Shown here: positions 40,281-63,118 of the stretch, one piece after another | How the letters are laid out: each line of letters starts with the position of its first letter | Position numbering within the stretch: position 1 is the first letter of the stretch | NCBI GenBank assembly: GCA_019695235.1 | Contig: JAIBAI010000001.1 | Location: 62,001-126,000 of the forward strand | Length of the DNA: 64,000 nucleotides | Origin: Bacteroidia bacterium | GTDB lineage: Bacteria > Bacteroidota > Bacteroidia > M30B66 | Direction: 5' to 3' | Program-made: the position numbers and the translations under genes | Notes under the pieces: model-generated | What the model was told of the DNA's origin: nothing | The model's database searches: none | What the model saw: the letters and a program-made list of their open reading frames with translations, nothing else

Positions 40281-41855
40281 CTAATTTTGCTGTTGCTTAG
40301 TGCTTTTAAATAAACGAACAAAGTTATTTGAGCGATATACTTCTATAAAGTTGGTCTTTAAGAGATTGTAAAGTTGGGCATTCGCCATTAAATTCAATTT
40401 CGATACATCGCCATAAACCAATACAAAGTCAATGTTTCTATCATTTTCTGATTGGTAATTGCTTTTCCATTTCAAACCGTTCAATGAGTCATTTCCGGCC
40501 AGTTGTACCTTTGGGAAATTTGATTTGTTCCATGTTATCGGGAACCATCCGAGCTCTGCCTCATAATTTTCAAGAATAATCATCGGCTTGTCAATTCCGG
40601 CATAATTAGAAAAATGCCAATGCAACCAGTTTTCAGAAAGGTTAACTGGTAGAACAACGCTTTCAGGCTTGATGTATTTCCCTGCCTGGTATATTTGTTC
40701 TGCCTGACTACTTAAATCAGTGATTCGGTTGAAGTTCCGGCTTACAAAAGGCTGACAATATGAAAGAGTCAGCAAAATTGTAAATACGATTTGCATATTA
40801 TCAAAACGTTGTGCTCCCAACCAGGAGATAAAAAACATAAAGAACATCAGGGCATAGCGGTCGCTCATCATACCAGCAGCTGCGTCATCCGGCGAGAAAA
40901 AATACATCATTAATGCAACTAGAGCGGGCAGCAGTAGAAAGTCAGCTCTCCCCCACCCGTCTTGACCTTGTTTTATTATCCTTTTGAATAAAGCATAGCC
41001 AAGCATACACAAGAGCGTAAGCCCAAGCGGGCGAAAAAGACTACTTTCTTTCGCGTCATATATTACAAGTGGTTTTAGGTCGAGCAACCATGCGAAAAGT
41101 GTTTGGTAGGGTATAAAGGTATTTTCACCCGCGAAAGGTGTTTTTAGCAGAAAGTACAACAACATGACAAAACCAGGTAAAGCGGCTATACATAAAGGGA
41201 GTATTTGAAGTATAAATGGTTTGAGTATATGCGAAAACGGCATCTCAGTCCTTTTATGCCAAGCATGGTAAAGCGAGAAACTACCCATTGCCAAAAGCAC
41301 AAAAGCAAAGTTGAGAACAGCGGCAAAATAAGTTAGTATAAGTAAGGTGGTTACGATAAGATAGTGCCGTATGCCTTTTGTTTTATGATGGTTGAGCCAA
41401 TATGACAACAGGAGAAAAAGCAAAATAAACGACAAGCTAAAGTTGTAAAAACCGATATGAAAAAGCAGGCTATGGCTAAAAGGGATGATAAGCAATGAAA
41501 CAAATGAGCCATTATGACTTAGACGCCTTAGTAAAAGCCTAAAACTCAATGTGATACCCAGAGTATAAAGCACCATAAAAACCTTTTCGGTGAAGGGGCC
41601 TGAGAAGAACTGCCTAAGCAGCGCTAAAACAATCGTTCCAAGGTAATTGGGTATTGGTTCTTTGTGTATTTCGAAGAAAGAATTTAATGATTCATTTCCT
41701 GCCATGAGGTGGCGAAATATTTCGGCATTGTATAGGTGGGCAGGTCCATCAAGGGATGGATAAAATGAAAGGAAGCAATAGCAGAACAAGTCTGCGGTCA
41801 AAAGGGCGAAGAACAGGAGGCTTTCCCAATTAAACTTGGGTAGTAATTTTTTCAT
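40281..41855 (-). CDS. polytopic membrane protein, GT-C glycosyltransferase-like
   Basis: Inner-membrane protein of 524 residues with about ten to twelve predicted membrane segments up to about residue 370 and a soluble C-terminal domain (about 385-520). The first loop has the acidic motif YPSLDGPAHLYN, the place where GT-C enzymes carry their catalytic Asp, so a polyprenyl-phosphate-sugar transferase is plausible. No closer family was recognised. Probably co-transcribed with the epimerase gene 2 bases downstream. TACTTTTA at 41871-41878 (minus) is a weak -7 candidate. Confidence 0.7.
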   Translation of the reverse strand: MKKLLPKFNWESLLFFALLTADLFCYCFLSFYPSLDGPAHLYNAEIFRHLMAGNESLNSFFEIHKEPIPNYLGTIVLALLRQFFSGPFTEKVFMVLYTLGITLSFRLLLRRLSHNGSFVSLLIIPFSHSLLFHIGFYNFSLSFILLFLLLSYWLNHHKTKGIRHYLIVTTLLILTYFAAVLNFAFVLLAMGSFSLYHAWHKRTEMPFSHILKPFILQILPLCIAALPGFVMLLYFLLKTPFAGENTFIPYQTLFAWLLDLKPLVIYDAKESSLFRPLGLTLLCMLGYALFKRIIKQGQDGWGRADFLLLPALVALMMYFFSPDDAAAGMMSDRYALMFFMFFISWLGAQRFDNMQIVFTILLTLSYCQPFVSRNFNRITDLSSQAEQIYQAGKYIKPESVVLPVNLSENWLHWHFSNYAGIDKPMIILENYEAELGWFPITWNKSNFPKVQLAGNDSLNGLKWKSNYQSENDRNIDFVLVYGDVSKLNLMANAQLYNLLKTNFIEVYRSNNFVRLFKSTKQQQN

Positions 41856-41921: not shown

Positions 41922-44900
41922 ATGAGTCGTTCAATACTTCGTGCGTTAATGCAACTATTTGCTTTGGCGGCAAAGCCTGGAAGCAAGCTGGAAAAAGGGC
42001 GCGAATTTCTTGTCAATTTTTTGCGCAGAGAGTTAGGTACCCAGCAGGTTGCTACCTATTTGGCCGAATTTCAGCGTCTTGTTGACCAAAACTTTTCTTC
42101 AGAAACAATTCGTGAGGAGTTGAAGCATAAATCTTCCTCATCAGTGAAGATGCTTCGTATTTGTACCAAGATTAACGAAGAGCTCACTTATTCACAAAAG
42201 TGTTTTGTTTTTATCAGGTTATCAGAGTTTATTGCAGCAGGCGAAGCGCCTGGGGGTAATGAGTTTGAGTTTTTAGATACCGTTGCTCAAACGCTGCTTA
42301 TTAACGCAACAGAACAAGGTTTGATGCGGCACATTTGTATTCAACCTTTAAGCATTTACCCTCATGAACATTGGTTGCGCATCAGTGGAAAGGTACTGCC
42401 GGATGTTGCCCGTCAATATGTAGTTCCGGGCTTAGATGGACAGTTTATTTTATTGTTTTTACCAGAGGCTGGAAGCTATTTTCTAAAATATTTGGGCCAG
42501 GAAGCATTTTATTTGGCCGGGCAGCTACTCAATCCGGATATGGTTTATCCGTTCCCGCCAGGTTCGGTGATACGGGGTACTAAAATAAGTCCATTATTTT
42601 ACAGTGACTTAGTAAGTAAGATACATAAAGAGCAGATACAACCTCCTATTATCTTTCAGGTAAGCAATCTGGAATATAAGTTTCCCAATGGGAAGCAAGG
42701 CTTACATCGAATTAGTTTCAGCGAGACCTCTGGCAGCCTTGTGGGTATTATGGGCTCGAGTGGAACCGGAAAAAGCACTCTGCTGAATGTACTTAACGGC
42801 AATATGTTACCAAGTGCCGGTCGGGTAAGCATCAATGGGGTTGATATTCATGCCGTTGGCAATCAAACCAAGGGTCTTGTCGGATATGTTTCGCAAGATG
42901 ATACGCTTTTTGAAGATTTGACAGTTTTCCAGAACCTGTGGTACAATGCGCTTTTGTGTTTTGATAAGCTGAGCAAAGCAGAAATTAGAAACAAGGTAGA
43001 TCGCACTTTAAAGGAGTTTGGTTTGGATGAAATCCGCGACTTGAAGGTAGGAAGTCAGTTGACCAAGGTTATTTCCGGGGGCCAGCGTAAGCGATTAAAC
43101 ATTGCATTGGAATTAATTCGTGAGCCTGCGGTACTTTTCCTTGACGAACCAACATCGGGTTTGAGCAGTCGTGATTCAGAGAACATCATGGATTTGTTAA
43201 AAGAGCTTGCGATACACGGAAAGCTTGTTTTTGTTGTGATTCATCAACCTTCATCGAATATTTTCAAAATGTTTGACCGCCTCATCCTGGTAGATGTTGG
43301 CGGCTATCCAATTTATTATGGCAATCCTTTGGAAGCAGTAATATATTTCAGGTCGCTGGTTGATCATGTTAAGCCTGGAGAAAGTGAATGTCCTGAATGT
43401 GGAAATGTAAATCCAGAGCAATTGTTTGACATACTTGAAGCACGGGTAATCAATGAGCATGGTCGTGCAACGTTGCAACGAAAGGTTTTACCCAAGGAGT
43501 GGAATATGTTTTACAAAAGGATAAGTAATCCAATAGAATCAGGCAAAGCCGCTCCAGCTTCCTTACCCCAATCATTCCAAAAACCCTCAAGGCTTAAGCA
43601 ATTCTTTGTTTTTTGTAGTAGAGACATCCGTTCAAAAGTTTCGAACCATCAGTACATGTTACTGAACTTACTTGAGGCGCCATTACTTGCCTTTTTGATG
43701 GCTTATTTTCTTAAATATCGGCATGAAGGCGAATATCAATTTTACAATAATTTGAACATCCCGGCATATCTGTTCGTATGTGTACTAACGAGTTTGTTTT
43801 TCGGATTAACTGTTAGTGCGGAAGAACTTTTTAGAGAAAGGCTTATCCGTCGCCGGGAACGGTTTTTAGAACTTTCATACGGTACTTATTTGAGTTCAAA
43901 GACACTTGTTCTTTTTGTGCTTTCTGCAATACAGTCAATCAGTTTTATTCTGGTTGGCCACTATGTTTTAGAAGTTCGGGGTTTATTTTGGGGAGATTGG
44001 CTCGTTCTTTTTTCTGTTTCAGCTTTTGCGAATATGCTTGGGTTGAATATTTCGTCGGCGTTCAATTCGGTAATTACCATCTATGTTTTGGTACCCCTGC
44101 TCATTATTCCACAAATTTTATTGAGTGGTGTTATCGTAAAGTTCGAAAATCTCAATCCCGAAATTGTAAAAAACAATGGAAAGGTGCCGCTTGTAGCCAA
44201 CCTAATGGCTACGAGATGGGCCTATGAGGCCATTGTGGTGAACAGGTTTACAAAAAACATTTGTCAAAATCACGTATTGTCACATGATATTGCGCTTTCA
44301 GAATGTGTATGGCGTGCAAATTATTGGTTTCCGAAGATGGAAGAAATGATTGACGAGGCTGAGAAAAACGCACATTCACTCAGGATATTGCAAATCGAAA
44401 TTAGGAAAACAAATGCCCTCGGTTTATATGATAATTTTAACGAAAATGCGATAAAGTTGAATGTTCGAACCACCTATTCAGCTATTCATTTATGGCTTGA
44501 AAAAATACGTAAGCAGGCTAATCAGCGCTTTTTGGTGGTTCAAAGAGAGAAAGACAAAATGATGGCAGCAGTGAGTGATTCAATGGTTAAACTTTATACC
44601 AATGATCAATTGTCAGCGCTTGTTAAGCGTTCTGATAATTTTGAAAAGATTCAGAAGAAGTCAGATGGTACCCTGCTACGTACTTTTGAGCCGGTATATC
44701 AGCTTCCGGAGCCGGGCTATATTGCAGCTGGCCAATTCTACGCCCCTTTTAAGCGGTTTGGGTCCTACCTGATGAGTACTTTATTTGCTAACGTATTGGT
44801 TATTTGGTTAATGACATTTCTGCTTGCTGCTGCATTGCGGTTCAATATGCTGTCACGAATATTAGGTATTGCCCCAAAACATTTAAAATTATCAATTGTT

Positions 44901-44936
44901 AGGTGGAAACCTTCTTCATCGCAAAAGGCAACATAA
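41922..44936 (+). CDS. TerB-ABCG-type fusion transporter
   Basis: ABC exporter half with ATPase before membrane domain (ABCG/White order), 1004 residues. Residues about 20-140 look like a TerB-like helical domain (RLSEFIAAGE...EFEFLDTVA). The ATPase spans about 245-480: Walker A SSGTGKST (K284), signature VISGGQRKRLNIALEL, Walker B LFLDEPTSGL, His loop VIHQPSSNIF. A short Cys pair (SECPECGNV) lies after it. The ABC-2 membrane domain (about 560-760) has five segments, then a soluble helical insert and a last membrane segment near 950. Substrate unknown. Its last 38 bases overlap siaC on the other strand. Confidence 0.85.
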   Translation: MSRSILRALMQLFALAAKPGSKLEKGREFLVNFLRRELGTQQVATYLAEFQRLVDQNFSSETIREELKHKSSSSVKMLRICTKINEELTYSQKCFVFIRLSEFIAAGEAPGGNEFEFLDTVAQTLLINATEQGLMRHICIQPLSIYPHEHWLRISGKVLPDVARQYVVPGLDGQFILLFLPEAGSYFLKYLGQEAFYLAGQLLNPDMVYPFPPGSVIRGTKISPLFYSDLVSKIHKEQIQPPIIFQVSNLEYKFPNGKQGLHRISFSETSGSLVGIMGSSGTGKSTLLNVLNGNMLPSAGRVSINGVDIHAVGNQTKGLVGYVSQDDTLFEDLTVFQNLWYNALLCFDKLSKAEIRNKVDRTLKEFGLDEIRDLKVGSQLTKVISGGQRKRLNIALELIREPAVLFLDEPTSGLSSRDSENIMDLLKELAIHGKLVFVVIHQPSSNIFKMFDRLILVDVGGYPIYYGNPLEAVIYFRSLVDHVKPGESECPECGNVNPEQLFDILEARVINEHGRATLQRKVLPKEWNMFYKRISNPIESGKAAPASLPQSFQKPSRLKQFFVFCSRDIRSKVSNHQYMLLNLLEAPLLAFLMAYFLKYRHEGEYQFYNNLNIPAYLFVCVLTSLFFGLTVSAEELFRERLIRRRERFLELSYGTYLSSKTLVLFVLSAIQSISFILVGHYVLEVRGLFWGDWLVLFSVSAFANMLGLNISSAFNSVITIYVLVPLLIIPQILLSGVIVKFENLNPEIVKNNGKVPLVANLMATRWAYEAIVVNRFTKNICQNHVLSHDIALSECVWRANYWFPKMEEMIDEAEKNAHSLRILQIEIRKTNALGLYDNFNENAIKLNVRTTYSAIHLWLEKIRKQANQRFLVVQREKDKMMAAVSDSMVKLYTNDQLSALVKRSDNFEKIQKKSDGTLLRTFEPVYQLPEPGYIAAGQFYAPFKRFGSYLMSTLFANVLVIWLMTFLLAAALRFNMLSRILGIAPKHLKLSIVRWKPSSSQKAT

Positions 44937-45282
44937 TAAGTGCCTGATAATCTTCGCCTGCCTCAAGCATATCTTCATCGTCTTCTTCATAAATCCAGGT
45001 GATTAATACCTTTGAAGTACCTGCCTGATGCATCTGGTAGAGCTTTTTGAAAATATCTAAAAGGCATTTTGACGTACTGGTATTAAAATATTCAAGGTGA
45101 ATATTGACCTGTGTTTCTTTTTGAGGTTGCAAAACATAGTTATCTATCCATTTGAAGACCGGTTCATAAAATTCGATAGAATTTTCGGGGATAGATCTAC
45201 CATTAAATTGAATCTGCCCCAAGGCATAGTTGCATTGCACCAGCGGGGTCTTATTTTCCTGAGGTATAAATAAATTATCCAT
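44899..45282 (-). CDS. siaC: SiaC-family regulatory phosphoprotein (DUF1987)
   Basis: Small partner-switch protein, 127 residues. In Pseudomonas aeruginosa SiaC is phosphorylated on a Thr by SiaB and, when unphosphorylated, activates the diguanylate cyclase SiaD. Here EYFNTSTSK places Thr68 at the expected phospho-site, and YEPVFKWIDNYV and ITWIYEEDDEDMLEAGEDY are family blocks. It overlaps the siaB stop by 3 bases (TAATG type). No SiaD-like cyclase lies in the window, so the output may differ. Confidence 0.87.
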   Translation of the reverse strand: MDNLFIPQENKTPLVQCNYALGQIQFNGRSIPENSIEFYEPVFKWIDNYVLQPQKETQVNIHLEYFNTSTSKCLLDIFKKLYQMHQAGTSKVLITWIYEEDDEDMLEAGEDYQALIMLPFAMKKVST

Positions 45283-45830
45283 TATACATTATTTACAGTG
45301 ATTACAAGGCTGAAAAATGAGAACTCTTCATCTACTTTGCTAAAAGAATAATCGAACTTCTGTCCGGATTTTCTTGCAATATCAATAATACCAAGCCCTC
45401 CGCCCCCCTTTTCAGAATAAAATTCATTGTTAAGGGTTTGCAAGTAATATGCTTTTAACTGTTCTCGGTTCATTGCATTTATCTGTTCAATTTTTGACTT
45501 AAGTTCAGGTATGCTTTTATTTAAAATATAGTTACCAGTAATGATTCTATAAAGGCCATTGTCGTTGCGACCAATTAGAAATAGTGAAGCTTTGTCGGCT
45601 AATGCTGGTGTGGAAGTAAGCACCTCACCATGATGATACAGATTTTGCAGGCATTCAACCAGCACATTGTACACTTTTTTACGTTGTCGGGGTTCTTCTC
45701 CAAGATTATCAAGTTTTGATTCCATGATTTGAAGGATAGAAGATAGTAAATCAGGGGTGATGACCCCTTTAAAGGAAAGCATGATTTTGCCATCCTCCAT
45801 CTTTTCGTAAAAATCAAATACATTAAACAT
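45282..45830 (-). CDS. siaB: SiaB family protein kinase
   Basis: Kinase of the GHKL/HATPase type that phosphorylates SiaC. 182 residues with an N-box-like helix VYNVLVECLQNLYHHGE and the ATP-lid Gly run YSEKGGGGLGIIDIARKSG. The length matches SiaB (about 180). Translationally coupled to siaC. It is the third gene of a four-gene minus-strand operon that begins with a lipoprotein and an exported protein, which suggests envelope input. Confidence 0.87.
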   Translation of the reverse strand: MFNVFDFYEKMEDGKIMLSFKGVITPDLLSSILQIMESKLDNLGEEPRQRKKVYNVLVECLQNLYHHGEVLTSTPALADKASLFLIGRNDNGLYRIITGNYILNKSIPELKSKIEQINAMNREQLKAYYLQTLNNEFYSEKGGGGLGIIDIARKSGQKFDYSFSKVDEEFSFFSLVITVNNV

Positions 45831-45847
45831 TACGCTGTATCATACGC

Positions 45848-46348
45848 TTAAAAACCTGTTTTTAATGAGTTTCTTGATTCAAGCAGGAAGCCAAGACAGC
45901 CATACATTGATTCGTCGGTAGGTTCATAGGAAACCTCTGGCAGTTGCAATTGGATAATCAGGTTAAGGCTGTTATCACAAACAAATTCAAAGTCAAGATT
46001 CGTATCATCTTCTGAGGTTTCGAACAAGACTTTTTTCGTGCGTGCATCAAGCACTTTATACATTAGATGTTGCCCTTGCAGCAGATTCTCATCTGCATGA
46101 AAGGTCATGCGATAATCAAATCCTTTAAAAACCGTTATATTGAAAGTACAAGACTGACCTGGCCTGAATAATGCGCTTTTTGATTGACTATTGTACTGGA
46201 ATTCAATGTCTTCCCTTTGGAACTTGCATTTTTCCTTGTGGTAGTTTTCGCAGTATTCAGTTTTATTGCGGGTTTTTGTTTGGGCGAATAAAGGCAGGTT
46301 CAACAACAAAGCTGCACCAATACCAAGAATTATATTAGAGATTTTCAT
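45848..46348 (-). CDS. small exported protein of unknown function
   Basis: 166 residues, signal peptide MKISNIILGIGAALLLNLPLFAQ. The mature part has four Cys (CENYHKEKC, FVCDN, YGCLG) that could form two disulphides, and alternating strands (SCTFNITVFKGFDYRMTFHA) suggesting a small beta sandwich. No family recognised. It sits 11 bases after the lipoprotein gene and 17 before siaB, so it is likely a periplasmic part of the same signalling unit. Confidence 0.8.
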   Translation of the reverse strand: MKISNIILGIGAALLLNLPLFAQTKTRNKTEYCENYHKEKCKFQREDIEFQYNSQSKSALFRPGQSCTFNITVFKGFDYRMTFHADENLLQGQHLMYKVLDARTKKVLFETSEDDTNLDFEFVCDNSLNLIIQLQLPEVSYEPTDESMYGCLGFLLESRNSLKTGF

Positions 46349-46359
46349 AGTTGTGCTGC

Positions 46360-47262
46360 TTATTTAGATGACGATTTCGAAGTAAATTCAGTTCGTATTG
46401 CAGTAGCAATCTCCTTAATTTCCTTAAATTGTTTTGAACTGAGAATTAATGTTGAGCCAGCACCAATTGTACGTTTTTCATTTGTATTTGTCGAAGATTT
46501 TGCTGGTTCAGCCTTGATGGCTTCAAAAGCATTTTTCAGTGGAGCCATGGCCGTAATAACCTCAGATACCCGCGAGTCATTTTTATGCCTTTCGAGAAAA
46601 TGAAAGAGATTTTCGAGAGGGAACTTCTGGTCAGCAAGGTATTGGTACACTGCCCCTCCTTCTTTTTCACCAGCGGCTAATTCTGTGCTTATATAAATGC
46701 TTTCAATAAAGCCTCCGGCCAACATCAATGCCAGGGATGCCCCTTGTCCGTTTTTTTCAAGATTAGCTGAAGCATCAAAAAACACATCGTTTGCATAGCT
46801 GTTTAAGGAATCGTTGTTTGCAAGGTTTTTTTCGATTCGTTTTAGCAAGTTTTCAGATATCACTGAGGCAATGCCCATTTCTTCTGCCAATTTCCGGAGG
46901 TTATTGAAAATTTTCAACACGTCAGCTTTCTGGTCGAAATTTGAACTATAAAACAAATCGCTGGAATAAATACCAAAATTGATAGCCTTCTCTTTTGAAC
47001 CCGTATAAGAAGCAATATTCGCTACAGGATTGAGTAAACCTGGTTTTGATTTTAAGCCAAGTCGTTTGAGGTGTGCGTAGTATTCACCTGGCATAGGTAT
47101 TTGAAAAAAAGCCTGAATTGAGTCAGCCAATTCTTTTGCAAGTGAATCATTCGCTTGAGCTGATTCCGCAGGTTTATCTGCTCCTCCGCAGCCTGAACCG
47201 AAGGATAATGCAAAACTTAGAATCGCATACAGGATGAATGCAGGTTTAAATTTGAATGACAT
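46360..47262 (-). CDS. lipoprotein of unknown function
   Basis: 300 residues with a type II signal peptide (lipobox LSFGSGC; Cys about residue 25) followed by GGADKP. The rest is mostly helical and rich in Ala, Glu, Lys and Ser, with no catalytic motif seen. Heads the operon lipoprotein - exported protein - siaB - siaC, with a promoter directly upstream. Possibly a sensor or tether in the envelope; this is inferred from position only. Confidence 0.8.
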   Translation of the reverse strand: MSFKFKPAFILYAILSFALSFGSGCGGADKPAESAQANDSLAKELADSIQAFFQIPMPGEYYAHLKRLGLKSKPGLLNPVANIASYTGSKEKAINFGIYSSDLFYSSNFDQKADVLKIFNNLRKLAEEMGIASVISENLLKRIEKNLANNDSLNSYANDVFFDASANLEKNGQGASLALMLAGGFIESIYISTELAAGEKEGGAVYQYLADQKFPLENLFHFLERHKNDSRVSEVITAMAPLKNAFEAIKAEPAKSSTNTNEKRTIGAGSTLILSSKQFKEIKEIATAIRTEFTSKSSSK

Positions 47263-47457: not shown

Positions 47458-50400
47458 ATGAAGGTGCTTAAAACAATTGGTTTTTTCTTTCTATTTATGC
47501 TGGGGGTCACTGTGCTGAAAGCCCAGCAGGCTAAAACTTTTTCAGGCAATGGAGAAACATTTCTTAAAGAAATGAAGGCATATCTTGAGGCTGCCGATAA
47601 AAAACTTGCAAAAGAGCTGATAGATGAGTTCGAATCAATTTGGCTAAAGCAATTCTCAGCCAATGAGCAAGACCAGGTGCTCGGTATTGCAAATACCATG
47701 GCGAAGCGCCGGATGGCGGCAATTCCAAATTTCAGAGACTTTCTTCATTCACTCATAGGCTTTTCTGTATCTGAACAATCTGAGCAGGTTTTTAACGAAT
47801 GGATGCTAACGCTCGAAAAAGCGGTTGCCAAAGGCTCGCCTGCAAAGTTTAGCCAGTATCTGAATTTTTCTGAGAATTTATTTCGTTACCGGGCTTTATA
47901 TAAATCAGAAGTTATCACTTGGTCAATAGACCCCTGCGACTATCAGTTCAGATTCGACAGTATTCCTAAACTTATCATTCCGGTAACCAATATAAGAGCC
48001 AGAACACGAACCGACAGTACGGTTATTCTTCAGACATCCGGTGTACTTTATCCTTATGAGGCAAAACTTTTGGGTAATAAAGGGGTAATCTTTTGGACAA
48101 GAGCCGGGTTATCAGAACAAGAAGCAAAGGCAGAATTAAGCACGTATCAGATTTCAGTAAAAACAACCCGATTTAGTGCAGACTCTTCTGTGTTCTATTT
48201 CCCACGGTACTTTAAGGAGCCATTAAAAGGTGTTGTTGCGGAGAAACTCACCGATAATCCGCAAGACCGTGATGCTACCTACCCCCGCTTTACCACATAT
48301 AACAAAGAATTTTTGATTCCGGGCATATTTAAAGACGTTGATTATCAGGGCGGTATCACTATTCAAGGCGCTAAGCTCTTAGGCTCCGGGAGTCCGGACA
48401 ATCCGGCTCATTTTACCTTTTTCAGAGAATCAAAACCTTTTGTAGAAGCATCTGCTCAGAATTTTCTCATAGAAGAAAACAGCATGCAGTCGTCAAATGC
48501 AAAGGTGGTTCTTCGGCTTGACACAGATTCGATTGTACATCCTGGATTGGTTTTCAGGTTCCTGAACGATAAAAGAGAGCTTTTTCTTTTACGCAATAAC
48601 GAAGGAAGTGCCAAGACCCCTTATTTTAACTCCTACCATCAGTTAGATATGGACTTTGAAGTGCTTCTCTGGAAGGTTGACGAGCCTACCATTCGCTTCA
48701 AGGCTATAGCCGGAGCTGTGGAAAGTAAAGCCCTTTTTGAATCGTCAGATTATTTCAGACAGGAACGGTATACAGAACTACAGGGAATTGATGAGGAAAG
48801 TCCCTTACAGATGCTCCAACGCTTATTTGATAAGACCAAAAGAGAAACCTTCAGTGCCAGTGAAGTAGCTTCATTTTATAAGATTGACATTAGTCAAACC
48901 AGACAAATCATGCGTAAATTGTCGTACCGTGGTTTTATTCTGTTTGATGAAGAAACAGAAACAATCACGCTGAAGCCAAGGGTACGAAAATATCAGTTAG
49001 CCTTGCAGGGGCGGGCAGACTATGATGTAATTCAACTTTATTCTCATGTGGGGGGCAATGACAATAATGCTGAACTCAGTTTGCTCAACTGGGATTTAAG
49101 GATGTATGGGGTAAGTCGGATTTTTTTAAGTGACTCCCAAAACGTGGTGATATATCCAAGAAATCAGGAACTTATTGTAAAAAAGAACCGGGATTTTGAT
49201 TTCGCAGGTCGTATTCTTGCCGGACGCTTTGAGTTCTTCGGTAAGAAGTTTGACTTTAACTATGACCGGTTTAAATTGAACCTTGATAACGTAGATTCAC
49301 TCAGGTTAAGGGTTGAAGGGAACGAATTGAATGAATTTGGTAAAAAAGAACTCATCAAGGTAAAAACTGTGATTGAGAACGTTATTGGCGACATCCTGAT
49401 TGACCACCCCAACAATAAAAGCGGAAGAAAGCCATTAGCCCAATACCCTATTTTTAACTCAGTAAAGAATTCGTATGCCTATTATCAGCGCTCCTCAATT
49501 TTAAATAGTGTGTACAAGCGTGATAATTTTTATTTCCAGCTTGACCCTTACGTGGTTGATAGTCTCGACAACTTTACCAATGAAGGGCTTGTTTTTAAAG
49601 GGCTATTTGTTTCTGCAGGTATCTTACCTGAATTAAGGGAAGAATTAAAATTACAGGATGATTATTCTTTGGGCTTTCGCAAGAATACCGGCGAAGCGGG
49701 GATGCCTGTATATGGCGGGAAAGGTACATTTATTAAAAATTTACAGTTAAGCCATAGAGGTCTTCGGGGTGATGGAGATATTGATTACATCACAACCAAA
49801 GCAAAGTCGGATGACTTTGTCTTTTATCCTGATTCAGTAAATGCATTTTGCAGAAGTTTAACAGTAAAGGCTGCACAGCAGGGCAATGTGGAGTTTCCGG
49901 ATGTGGAAGCAGCGGATGTACGTTTACATTGGGAGCCATATCAGCCCAATAAGTTTGAGGTTGCCCAAACCAAAGGGGCAATCATGATGTATGCCGGCGA
50001 GTCAAAACTTAAAGGGAAGATTGCCATCGGTGAAGGCGGGATGACAGGTAGCGGAACCCTGGAATTTGCAAGTGCTGAGGTAGCTTCTAAAAAATTCAGG
50101 TTTAAGAAAGAAGACTTCAAATCAGATACAGCTTCATTTGCCTTTACCGCTCGTGATGAGTTGAAAGAAGATGGTACCAAGGAAGTTGCCATTAAAACAG
50201 ACAATGTGAAGGCCGATGTAAGTTTCAAGAACAGGCAGGGGCAGTTTAAGTCGAACTCATCAGATTCATATATCGAGTTTCCGGTGAACAAATACATTGC
50301 TTACATGGATGAATTGAGGTGGTATATGGACAAGGATGAAGTAGACATGAATTCGTCAATGAATGAAATTGACCTGATAGGTTCGCGCTTTGTATCTGTC

Positions 50401-51897
50401 AAGTCAGACCAGGATTCATTGACGTTTGTTGCACCAAGGGCGAAGTATGCGTTGGCCGACCGGACTATACGTACAGATGGGGTTAAATTGATACGTGTTG
50501 CCGATGCGACCATTTATCCGGATAAAGAAAAGATAAATGTTGAACGAAATGCTGTAATCACCACGCTTACAAACAGTAGAATCAATGCCAACAATGACTT
50601 GAAATACCATGATATTTATAATGCAAGCATTGATATTTTCAGCCGGAAGAAATACAAAGCAAGCGGTGATTATGATTATGAAGATGATTTAGGCAAGGTG
50701 CAGAAAATAAGTTTTGCCACTGTTCAGCAGGACACAGCAGGCAACACAATTGCCTCGGGTGAAATTGCTGAAACACAGAATTTTAAATTAAGTCAGGAAT
50801 TTGAGTTCAAAGGCCAGGCCAGACTTTTTGCGCCTCGTAAGACCCTTACCTTCGATGGGGGCGTTCGTATAGTGCACCCATGTAAAGGTCTTGAACGGTC
50901 ATGGTTAAAGTTTAAAACAGAAATTGATCCGGCCAATATTTCAATACCGGTTGATTCGTTCCCTAAAACACCTGACAATGAAAAACTGCTTGCAGGCCTG
51001 GTGTTGGTTAAAGACTCGACGCATGTGTATCCTTCTTTCCTTACACGAAAGCGCAAAGCCGGAGACCAGGAAATCATCAGTTCAAGAGGTTTGTTAAAGT
51101 TCAATAAAGAAAGCCAGGAGTTCAGGATTACTACAAAGGCTAAGTTTGACAATCCATCACTGCCAGACGATTATGTAGCTATGAAACAGGAGAACTGTGA
51201 TCTAAGTGCTGAAGGTAGTTTAAACCTAGGAATGGAACTTGGGCAGGTGAAATTGCAGGCAGCTGGTAAGGCCAGTCATAGTATTGTAAGTGATAAGACG
51301 GAGTTCACTATGGCGCTGGCAGTTAATTTCTTTCTGGCACCCGAATTAATCAAACATATTGAAGAGACCATTGCTGGTACACAGGGGCTGCAACCGGCTG
51401 ATGTAACAAGTACTGACTATAAAAAGGCTATGACAAATCTCATAGGCACGGAAGCATCAGACCGGGTGTTTAAAGATTTGGCATCTACAGGTACTATCAA
51501 ACGCTTTCCGGATGAGCTTGACAAAACAATGGTTTTTGTAAACCTGAATATGAAATGGAATACAGCAACGAAATCATACATTTCTGATGGATGGCTGTCG
51601 TTATCAAATATTGGCAAAACCCCTGTAAACAAGACCATCAAAGGTAAAATTGAGTTGGTGAAAAAGCGAGGTGGTGATATCTTAAATCTTTATATTGAAT
51701 TAGAGTCACAGAAATGGTACTTCTTCAATTTTAACCGTAATATCATGTATGTGTTAGGCGGCGACGAGAATTTCAACAAAATGATTCGTGAGATGGATCA
51801 GAAGCAACGTGAACAAAAGGTGGAAGGCAACAATCAGCCACCCTACCAGTTTATGATTGGCGTTGAAAAACGTAAGCGTGATTTTGTTGACAACTAA
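47458..51897 (+). CDS. giant exported beta-rich protein with embedded wHTH-like segment
   Basis: 1479 residues with signal peptide MKVLKTIGFFFLFMLGVTVLKAQ. Residues about 30-150 are helical; about 160-440 are beta-rich. Residues about 445-513 read like a winged helix (FSASEVASFYKIDISQTRQI, then MRKLSYRGFILFDEETETIT). Residues about 520-1250 are a long series of strands with Lys/Asp/Ser/Thr turns; parts such as GVKLIRVADATIYPDKEKIN resemble the OstA/LptA-like groove repeat. The end is charged (QKVEGNNQPPYQF). No enzyme motif seen. It converges on the S9 peptidase gene with 4 bases of overlap. Envelope scaffold or lipid-transport role is possible but unproven. Confidence 0.83.
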   Translation: MKVLKTIGFFFLFMLGVTVLKAQQAKTFSGNGETFLKEMKAYLEAADKKLAKELIDEFESIWLKQFSANEQDQVLGIANTMAKRRMAAIPNFRDFLHSLIGFSVSEQSEQVFNEWMLTLEKAVAKGSPAKFSQYLNFSENLFRYRALYKSEVITWSIDPCDYQFRFDSIPKLIIPVTNIRARTRTDSTVILQTSGVLYPYEAKLLGNKGVIFWTRAGLSEQEAKAELSTYQISVKTTRFSADSSVFYFPRYFKEPLKGVVAEKLTDNPQDRDATYPRFTTYNKEFLIPGIFKDVDYQGGITIQGAKLLGSGSPDNPAHFTFFRESKPFVEASAQNFLIEENSMQSSNAKVVLRLDTDSIVHPGLVFRFLNDKRELFLLRNNEGSAKTPYFNSYHQLDMDFEVLLWKVDEPTIRFKAIAGAVESKALFESSDYFRQERYTELQGIDEESPLQMLQRLFDKTKRETFSASEVASFYKIDISQTRQIMRKLSYRGFILFDEETETITLKPRVRKYQLALQGRADYDVIQLYSHVGGNDNNAELSLLNWDLRMYGVSRIFLSDSQNVVIYPRNQELIVKKNRDFDFAGRILAGRFEFFGKKFDFNYDRFKLNLDNVDSLRLRVEGNELNEFGKKELIKVKTVIENVIGDILIDHPNNKSGRKPLAQYPIFNSVKNSYAYYQRSSILNSVYKRDNFYFQLDPYVVDSLDNFTNEGLVFKGLFVSAGILPELREELKLQDDYSLGFRKNTGEAGMPVYGGKGTFIKNLQLSHRGLRGDGDIDYITTKAKSDDFVFYPDSVNAFCRSLTVKAAQQGNVEFPDVEAADVRLHWEPYQPNKFEVAQTKGAIMMYAGESKLKGKIAIGEGGMTGSGTLEFASAEVASKKFRFKKEDFKSDTASFAFTARDELKEDGTKEVAIKTDNVKADVSFKNRQGQFKSNSSDSYIEFPVNKYIAYMDELRWYMDKDEVDMNSSMNEIDLIGSRFVSVKSDQDSLTFVAPRAKYALADRTIRTDGVKLIRVADATIYPDKEKINVERNAVITTLTNSRINANNDLKYHDIYNASIDIFSRKKYKASGDYDYEDDLGKVQKISFATVQQDTAGNTIASGEIAETQNFKLSQEFEFKGQARLFAPRKTLTFDGGVRIVHPCKGLERSWLKFKTEIDPANISIPVDSFPKTPDNEKLLAGLVLVKDSTHVYPSFLTRKRKAGDQEIISSRGLLKFNKESQEFRITTKAKFDNPSLPDDYVAMKQENCDLSAEGSLNLGMELGQVKLQAAGKASHSIVSDKTEFTMALAVNFFLAPELIKHIEETIAGTQGLQPADVTSTDYKKAMTNLIGTEASDRVFKDLASTGTIKRFPDELDKTMVFVNLNMKWNTATKSYISDGWLSLSNIGKTPVNKTIKGKIELVKKRGGDILNLYIELESQKWYFFNFNRNIMYVLGGDENFNKMIREMDQKQREQKVEGNNQPPYQFMIGVEKRKRDFVDN

Positions 51898-54070: not shown

Positions 54071-54598
54071 TTATGCCTTGCGTTTCTTAGCTTTTTTCAA
54101 TTGTTTGAATGCCTTGCGGGCAGTAGCATTCAAAGCAGGGCCGTGTTCAGGCAGAATACTTTCGGCCATTGCCCAAACTTCGTTACCTAAATCCGGATAT
54201 TTGGCTGCCAATTGCATACAAATAAGCAAAGCATTTGCTTTCACGGCAACCGGAAAGCGCCTGTCAATGAATATTCGGGAAGCTTCATTAAACATTGTTG
54301 CCTGATTGGACTCAGAAACAGGAATTACGGTGAAAATGCGCAACAAATTTCTGGTAATACCGGTGTGAAAGCCCTGATCTAGATTTTTTAGCAAAGAAGC
54401 TTCTATTGGCAGCAGCAATTCAGGCGCAAATTCACATGCGAAGCTCAAAACCCAAGATGCACGCAATGCCCCTGGATGATTTGAACAAGCTAATTTGGCA
54501 AGTTCATTAAAAAGCTTTTGGTCATTTGAAGCAGTCATGGCTAATTTTACGGCAAATGCCTTGCTTTTACCTTCTGCCAGTACCTGTTTCAATTCCAT
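54071..54598 (-). CDS. HEAT-repeat-like helical protein
   Basis: 175 residues, all-helical, with repeated helix pairs (ELAKLACSNHPGALRASWVLSF; FPVAVKANALLICMQLAAKY) like short HEAT repeats and a very basic C-terminus (KQLKKAKKRKA). No signal peptide and no catalytic motif. The ATG overlaps the stop of the MerR-type gene by one base, so the two are co-transcribed. Role unknown; a protein-binding scaffold is the most that can be said. Confidence 0.8.
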   Translation of the reverse strand: MELKQVLAEGKSKAFAVKLAMTASNDQKLFNELAKLACSNHPGALRASWVLSFACEFAPELLLPIEASLLKNLDQGFHTGITRNLLRIFTVIPVSESNQATMFNEASRIFIDRRFPVAVKANALLICMQLAAKYPDLGNEVWAMAESILPEHGPALNATARKAFKQLKKAKKRKA

Positions 54599-61750: not shown

Positions 61751-63118
61751 ATGAAAATGGTGGGTATCCGGATGCTGTTGCTTGCACTGCTGGTTTTGTT
61801 AACCAGATTGCCCTTCTTAAGTCAGGGGTATGGGAGCGAAGATGATAGCTGGGGACTTGTGCTCAATGCACGTCAAATGGCTGAAACAGGCGAATACTCG
61901 TTTTCGCGCTTACCCGGGCATCCTGTACAGGAATACGTACTGATGTTGATGCCTTATGCTGGTGCGTTTGTGATGAACTTGCTGAGTGCATTGTTCTCTG
62001 TTGCTGCTGTAATTTGCTTTGCATTTATCCTGCGGGTTTACAAGATTCATCAGTGGCTATTATGGTCAGTTGTCTTTGCTACTATTCCGATAATCTGGAT
62101 AAGTAGTACCTATACCATTGACTATATCTGGGCCCTGGCCTTTGTGTTATTTGCCTGGTTGGCTTTGCTAAAAAGGCGGTACACCCTGGTAGCGCTTTTT
62201 CTGGGCTTTGCTATTGCTTGTCGTATCACTTCCGGTGCTGTTTTAATCGGTTTTGCATGGATTGCATTTCGTCAGGAGGGGCGAAAATTACCTCAGGTAG
62301 TATGGATGGGTGTTTTAACAATGGTGGTAGCCGCATGTTGGTATTTCCCTTCGTGGTTACGTTATGGCTGGTCATTCTTTGACACCTATCGCCTGCCCTA
62401 CCCATCGTTACCTAAAGTAATTTACAAGGCTACATTTGGGGTATGGGGGCTTTCAGGGTTTATTGCCATTCTGCTCCTTCTTTGGCAGAAATTGCGTAAT
62501 CAGGCTGATTCATTATTGCCGGACGGACATCTGACAGCCATTATTTTAAACATTTTACTGTATCTGGCAGCTTTTCTGGTACTACCGCAAAAGTCAGCAT
62601 TCTGGATACCTGCATTGCCATTTATGCTGTTTTGGCTTGTATATCAGATAAGAAAGCCGACGTTGGTGAACATCACTGCTATTTTGTTTCTGCTATCCTC
62701 CATTACAGGAGGCTTTAATCTTGCAAATGCTGAGCGCGGCGCCAATTATTCAAAAGCAGCCCTGGTACGCACTGTAGCTGGTCAGGAAGTATTTTTTGAT
62801 CCGTTAAACGGGCCCTTGCAAAATGAATACAGCAGGCGCGAAAACCGGCAAGTTTATATTGAATCAGCTGTAAAAGCAGCCCAAAAACTTGATTCAGGCG
62901 CTCTGGTACTTTGTGGCTGGTGGACCAATCAGTTTATTGTCAACTGCCAGGACCAGGGTGCTTGCCAGGTTCAGGTAGCTGAGTTTTTCAATAAGACACA
63001 ACTCGACAGCGTTATAAAATCCGGCACCCGAATTTGGTATTTATCTGAAATAGACCAGGCGAATGATGAGCGGTATCAGATGAATTATACGGCCAGTGTA
63101 GGTCGGAAGCTGGATTAG
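61751..63118 (+). CDS. polytopic membrane protein, GT-C glycosyltransferase-like
   Basis: Inner-membrane protein of 455 residues with about nine to eleven predicted membrane segments up to about residue 335, then a soluble domain (about 340-455). The first periplasmic loop carries YGSEDDSWG, an acidic cluster where GT-C enzymes hold their catalytic Asp, and a second loop has STYTIDYIWA. A dolichyl/undecaprenyl-phosphate sugar transferase is plausible. Not clearly related to the protein at 40281 beyond general layout. Start codon uncertain because of the adjacent -7 element. Confidence 0.7.
   Translation: MKMVGIRMLLLALLVLLTRLPFLSQGYGSEDDSWGLVLNARQMAETGEYSFSRLPGHPVQEYVLMLMPYAGAFVMNLLSALFSVAAVICFAFILRVYKIHQWLLWSVVFATIPIIWISSTYTIDYIWALAFVLFAWLALLKRRYTLVALFLGFAIACRITSGAVLIGFAWIAFRQEGRKLPQVVWMGVLTMVVAACWYFPSWLRYGWSFFDTYRLPYPSLPKVIYKATFGVWGLSGFIAILLLLWQKLRNQADSLLPDGHLTAIILNILLYLAAFLVLPQKSAFWIPALPFMLFWLVYQIRKPTLVNITAILFLLSSITGGFNLANAERGANYSKAALVRTVAGQEVFFDPLNGPLQNEYSRRENRQVYIESAVKAAQKLDSGALVLCGWWTNQFIVNCQDQGACQVQVAEFFNKTQLDSVIKSGTRIWYLSEIDQANDERYQMNYTASVGRKLD

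Follow-up and report, generated by a model that had tools for sequence, protein, structure and literature searches.

An exported 1479-residue protein of Bacteroidia with a winged-helix domain, from an unnamed family

Gene, export signal and predicted domains

The window, meaning the whole stretch of 64,000 nucleotides that was analysed, contains an open reading frame on the forward strand at 47458-51897. It starts with ATG and runs for 1479 codons in a frame that is open throughout, as originally predicted. Homologues of the same length at 65-72% identity in other MAGs, together with homologues at 24-41% identity in many families, identify it as a real gene. The features of the gene and its product are listed below.

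47458..51897, + strand: complete gene, 1479 amino acids, exported, unnamed family, single copy in the genome (open reading frame and searches)
47458..47523, + strand: predicted signal peptide of the SPase I type, residues 1-22, cleavage between LKA and QQ, lipobox Cys absent (sequence; same in homologues)
47551..47889, + strand: N-terminal six-helix domain, residues 32-144 (AlphaFold pLDDT about 88-96)
47893..48504, + strand: first antiparallel beta region, residues 146-349, the confidently modelled strand-rich part (pLDDT 68-96)
48802..49008, + strand: winged-helix domain, residues 449-517 (profile against the PDB, Pfam in members, AlphaFold, Foldseek, ungapped in 39 representatives)
49015..49857, + strand: most conserved stretch, residues 520-800, strand-rich (entropy 1.6-2.2; low-confidence model)
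50362..50877, + strand: predicted beta region, residues 969-1140 (pLDDT mostly 54-87)
51217..51894, + strand: predicted C-terminal beta region, residues 1254-1479, with helices at 1295-1344 (pLDDT about 46-87)

The N-terminus, MKVLKTIGFFFLFMLGVTVLKA followed by QQ, reads as a Sec signal with an SPase I site. Nearly all of the 67 distinct homologues have AQ-type signal peptides that are predicted to be cleavable, and in the few that lack a signal the start was apparently set too late by the first-Met rule. The protein had been described as exported with a clear signal peptide, and both its own N-terminus and those of nearly all homologues bear this out. A lipobox Cys, which would mark a lipoprotein, does not follow the signal in this protein or its homologues, and a sequence scan of the 1479-residue protein detected no second transmembrane-like segment. 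The few hydrophobic peaks in other family members are located in predicted strands or short helices. The C-termini of the protein and its homologues are either charged (KRKRDFVDN) or carry a Lys/Glu-rich tail, and they lack the C-terminal aromatic beta-signal of outer-membrane barrels. We infer a soluble periplasmic location rather than a surface location.

Searches of Pfam, NCBIfam and the PDB with the single 1479-residue sequence found no family that covers the protein, in line with the original prediction that no described family is known to have this combination of parts. A match to PF00545 'Ribonuclease' (E 0.025) was below the cut-off and was taken as chance. Pfam and NCBIfam searches over 20 members gave scattered weak matches only, and a search of the open-licence literature found no paper describing the family.

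The protein was folded as two half-models from a shallow input alignment of 14 rows. Beyond the N-terminal helices, both models predict strands nearly to the end of the chain and so agree with the strand-rich C-terminal part claimed earlier. The C-terminal half-model is poor, with a mean pLDDT of 49.6 and much of it below 50. Profile searches of the PDB detected no sequence relative of the six-helix domain (residues 32-144) and no relative of the first beta region (residues 146-349). In a self-alignment for internal repeats, the off-diagonal score reached 65 where the shift was only a few positions and about 46 where it was 430; the null gave 38. An internal repeat was not accepted; the near-diagonal scores may be trivial, and none of the scores defines a clean unit.

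The winged-helix domain

The winged helix is confirmed and is the best-supported element of the observation. The profile of the whole family, searched against the whole PDB, matched only four chains, all of them winged-helix and all aligned to profile positions 453-525. When the profile was confined to residues 440-520, the best match was TFE (E 2.1e-4), and almost all of the 60 listed chains were winged-helix. Control profiles of five other regions gave scattered non-significant matches to the PDB with no coherent class. Pfam searches with single members matched Fe_dep_repress (2.3e-5), TrmB and TFIIE_alpha, and the winged-helix positions matched a genuine DtxR-type repressor in the genome of another class.

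The AlphaFold model places helices at 449-460, 467-473 and 478-490 and strands at 464-466, 494-497 and 502-505, an H-S-H-H-S-S order across residues 449-509 with a pLDDT of about 69-86. Foldseek matched this part to MarR and AspA domains with a probability of 1.0 and about 3 Å over some 72-75 residues. The model, the Foldseek matches and the PDB profile all support the H1-S1-H2-H3-S2-wing-S3 topology of the winged-helix superfamily. The domain had been proposed at about residues 445-513; it is present in the predicted structure, and those limits are nearly exact. None of the 39 representatives has a gap in the domain, and its sequence is less conserved (entropy 2.5) than the beta core (1.6-2.2).

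The usual setting of the winged-helix fold is in DNA-binding proteins, and one held permanently outside the cytoplasm is unusual. The winged helices of TFE, DtxR/MntR, MarR and AspA share the fold and a weak but repeated profile similarity with the domain described here. In contrast to them, this domain is embedded in an exported protein of 1479 amino acids and has no conserved basic recognition helix. The net charge of the third, recognition helix averages +0.6 over the 39 representatives (range -3 to +4); it is +4 in the window copy, which is basic, and negative in seven of the representatives. Because the protein is exported and a basic recognition helix is not a conserved feature of the family, docking to protein is likelier than binding to DNA, and the earlier suggestion that the winged helix binds protein is probably correct.

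Family distribution and gene order

The species-level genome collection contained homologues at 13 loci. All 10 genomes of the source order and 323 of 395 genomes sampled over the class Bacteroidia have a full-length, single-copy homologue, and homologues are present in 242 of 293 genomes of another Bacteroidia order. A phylum-wide draw gave matches in 16 of 396 genomes, 14 of them full-length and all from the same class and two of them short and partial; the number is low because the draw was dominated by families without the gene. There is one copy per genome, and the two or three matches reported in some genomes look like split alignments of a single gene. The plasmid collection contained no match. 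Most sampled families of Bacteroidia keep the gene, and its absence from some lineages shows that it is not universally needed. A single-copy exported protein of roughly 1500 residues, kept by most of the families sampled in a major class, that has neither a name nor a Pfam entry marks an obvious gap in the knowledge of the Bacteroidota envelope.

At one locus (L028; G274:C4:35991-36164) a short piece of the gene is left, interrupted by two in-frame stops, and other genera of that family keep the whole gene. The remnant suggests a recent loss and therefore that the gene is not universally essential. Several members of the G146 order, among them L101 and L108, are longer, with chains of up to 2168 amino acids. 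Many of these longer members have Lys/Glu/Ala-rich C-terminal tails that are absent from the window protein.

Gene order was compared across 41 loci, the window included. The common order is folP<-DUF1599-DoxX/MauE-dppB-like permease-tpiA-(DUF6150)-prmA-gene-plsY-(PD40/SPOR giant), where "gene" stands for the member of this family. Upstream, prmA adjoins the gene in 27 of 41 loci and tpiA is present in 22; plsY lies directly downstream in 18. The tpiA-prmA-gene-plsY order is absent at the window locus, and plsY is on another contig of the same genome. PlsY is a phospholipid-precursor acyltransferase. The linkage points mildly to phospholipids, but a housekeeping gene order retained by descent would account for it just as well.

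A SiaC/DUF6272 cassette takes the place of the upstream part in the window and in some of the nearest relatives. In the window it lies just upstream, at 44899-47262 (- strand) and 41922-44936 (+ strand), and encodes a 1004-residue ABC-2 type transporter, SiaC (PF09345), DUF6272 and proteins of 166 and 300 residues. The cassette could be a SiaABCD-like signalling unit. It was rejected as a partner of the 1479-residue protein, since only close relatives (L001, L007 and L008) share it. Four window reading frames, at 40281-41855 (-), 46360-47262 (-), 54071-54598 (-) and 61751-63118 (+), encode proteins of 175-524 amino acids that have no Pfam match. In nine of the 41 loci (L110, L115, L116, L159, L164, L166, L167, L169 and L170), plsY or the gene is followed by a very large protein of up to about 2300 residues with weak PD40 and SPOR matches and no clear family overall.

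Fold comparisons and possible roles

The long C-terminal part had been likened to LptA/OstA groove repeats. Foldseek with the N-terminal half-model ranked LptD first and second, and with the C-terminal half-model all of the first 14 ranks went to LptD; LptC and LptA came further down the lists. These fold matches are weak (E 0.0017-0.3, none below 0.001; TM about 0.1 to LptD), and large parts of the models have a pLDDT below 50. The 67-sequence family profile was compared by hhalign with alignments of 15 OstA-like and 12 TamB proteins, using the reversed profile as a null. The scores of 27.7 (OstA-like) and 22.0 (TamB) were no better than those of the reversed profile (23.9 and 31.8), so that hhalign was negative for the C-terminal part of TamB as well. 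Pfam detected no OstA_2 or LptD_N in the window protein, in 20 members, or in regions 520-960 and 960-1150 of 39 members, and neither the window protein nor the 20 members matched its TamB or AsmA domains. The repeat claim thus keeps its Foldseek ranking but has no sequence-level sign in Pfam, the PDB profiles or hhalign, and the predicted resemblance to Lpt proteins, which would go with a single open beta-jellyroll groove, is a consistent but weak lead.

The same genome has separate genes for an OstA-like protein (531 amino acids, with OstA_2 and LptD_N matches) and TamB (1509 amino acids), so the 1479-residue protein does not substitute for either of them. The LptA/LptC/LptD bridge resembles it in export and long antiparallel strands and supplies the top-ranked folds for both half-models. 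However, the 1479-residue protein is far longer, has a helical N-terminus and a winged helix in addition, and has no profile match to them. TamB and AsmA are similar to it in length (about 1500 amino acids), export and strand richness, but their N-terminal inner-membrane anchor helix appears to be replaced by a cleavable-type signal, Pfam joins it to neither, and the profile comparison does not join it to TamB. In Bacteroidota TamB is an envelope gene, and TamL/TamB are essential in Flavobacterium johnsoniae (PMC12045153). They are the closest published parallel in importance but different from the protein described here.

We put a probability of about one in three on a core envelope protein, soluble in the periplasm, in which the winged helix docks a partner and the beta body works like the Lpt and Tam bridges. 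The Sec signal would export the protein and SPase I would release it. The predicted N-terminal helical domain would then lead into a very long antiparallel beta structure. The winged helix, which follows the first beta region and precedes the most conserved beta core, would act as a fixed protein-docking or hinge module and not as a DNA binder. The beta body would most likely form a long sheet or groove that works in the manner of Lpt and Tam; it may hold acyl chains or unfolded clients of the envelope, or pass them on towards the outer membrane. The groove and its cargo are suggested by the weak fold resemblance and by the linkage to plsY in many genomes.

A bolder form of this reading, which we regard as doubtful, makes the protein a conduit for lipid or LPS across the periplasm of Bacteroidia, the third beside Lpt and Tam. 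It would combine a long beta groove with an integral winged-helix module for docking, and its gene is linked to plsY in many lineages. The Tam systems of Bacteroidota and Proteobacteria already differ. Should the beta body carry lipids, the protein would help to answer how phospholipids and LPS reach the Bacteroidota outer membrane. A periplasmic scaffold or lipid conduit with a winged helix was what the original prediction had offered; export, the winged helix, strand richness and the lack of a named family stood, and the lipid conduit did not gain support from profiles, which leave the protein unjoined to OstA and TamB.

The protein may instead serve outer-membrane proteins or secretion machines as a periplasmic scaffold or chaperone, an explanation of nearly equal probability in which the beta regions are stacked globular sandwiches that carry no lipid and the winged helix and helical N-terminus are protein-binding ends. 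Both of these are typical protein-interaction folds, lipid carriers have no sequence link to the protein, and the PD40/SPOR giant in nine loci fits this explanation. However, the Foldseek lists for both halves are headed by Lpt proteins and not by sandwich proteins, and a simple role in the T9SS is a poor fit. SprA and other T9SS parts are likewise large exported Bacteroidia proteins, but the 1479-residue protein has no PF14349 match. SprA is present in 284 of 295 class genomes, and of the 20 listed genomes without the gene, 15 have it. T9SS dependence as the sole explanation was rejected on this co-occurrence.

A secreted or surface structural protein would also be large, strand-rich and exported. 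It is an unlikely identity; NCBIfam detected no C-terminal T9SS sorting domain in 20 members, and single-copy conservation with a recurrent gene order is unlike adhesins. An LptD-like outer-membrane barrel with an N-terminal periplasmic domain, for which the top Foldseek match speaks, is slightly less likely still, given the C-termini without a beta-signal, the LptD_N and OstA_2 models that match another gene of the genome, and the barrel-less LptC and LptA on the same Foldseek list. Binding of nucleic acid outside the cytoplasm, for DNA uptake or to extracellular DNA, is very improbable even though the nearest profile relatives are DNA-binding winged helices and the window copy is basic, for the charge of the recognition helix varies in sign among the representatives and the linked genes are housekeeping rather than competence genes.
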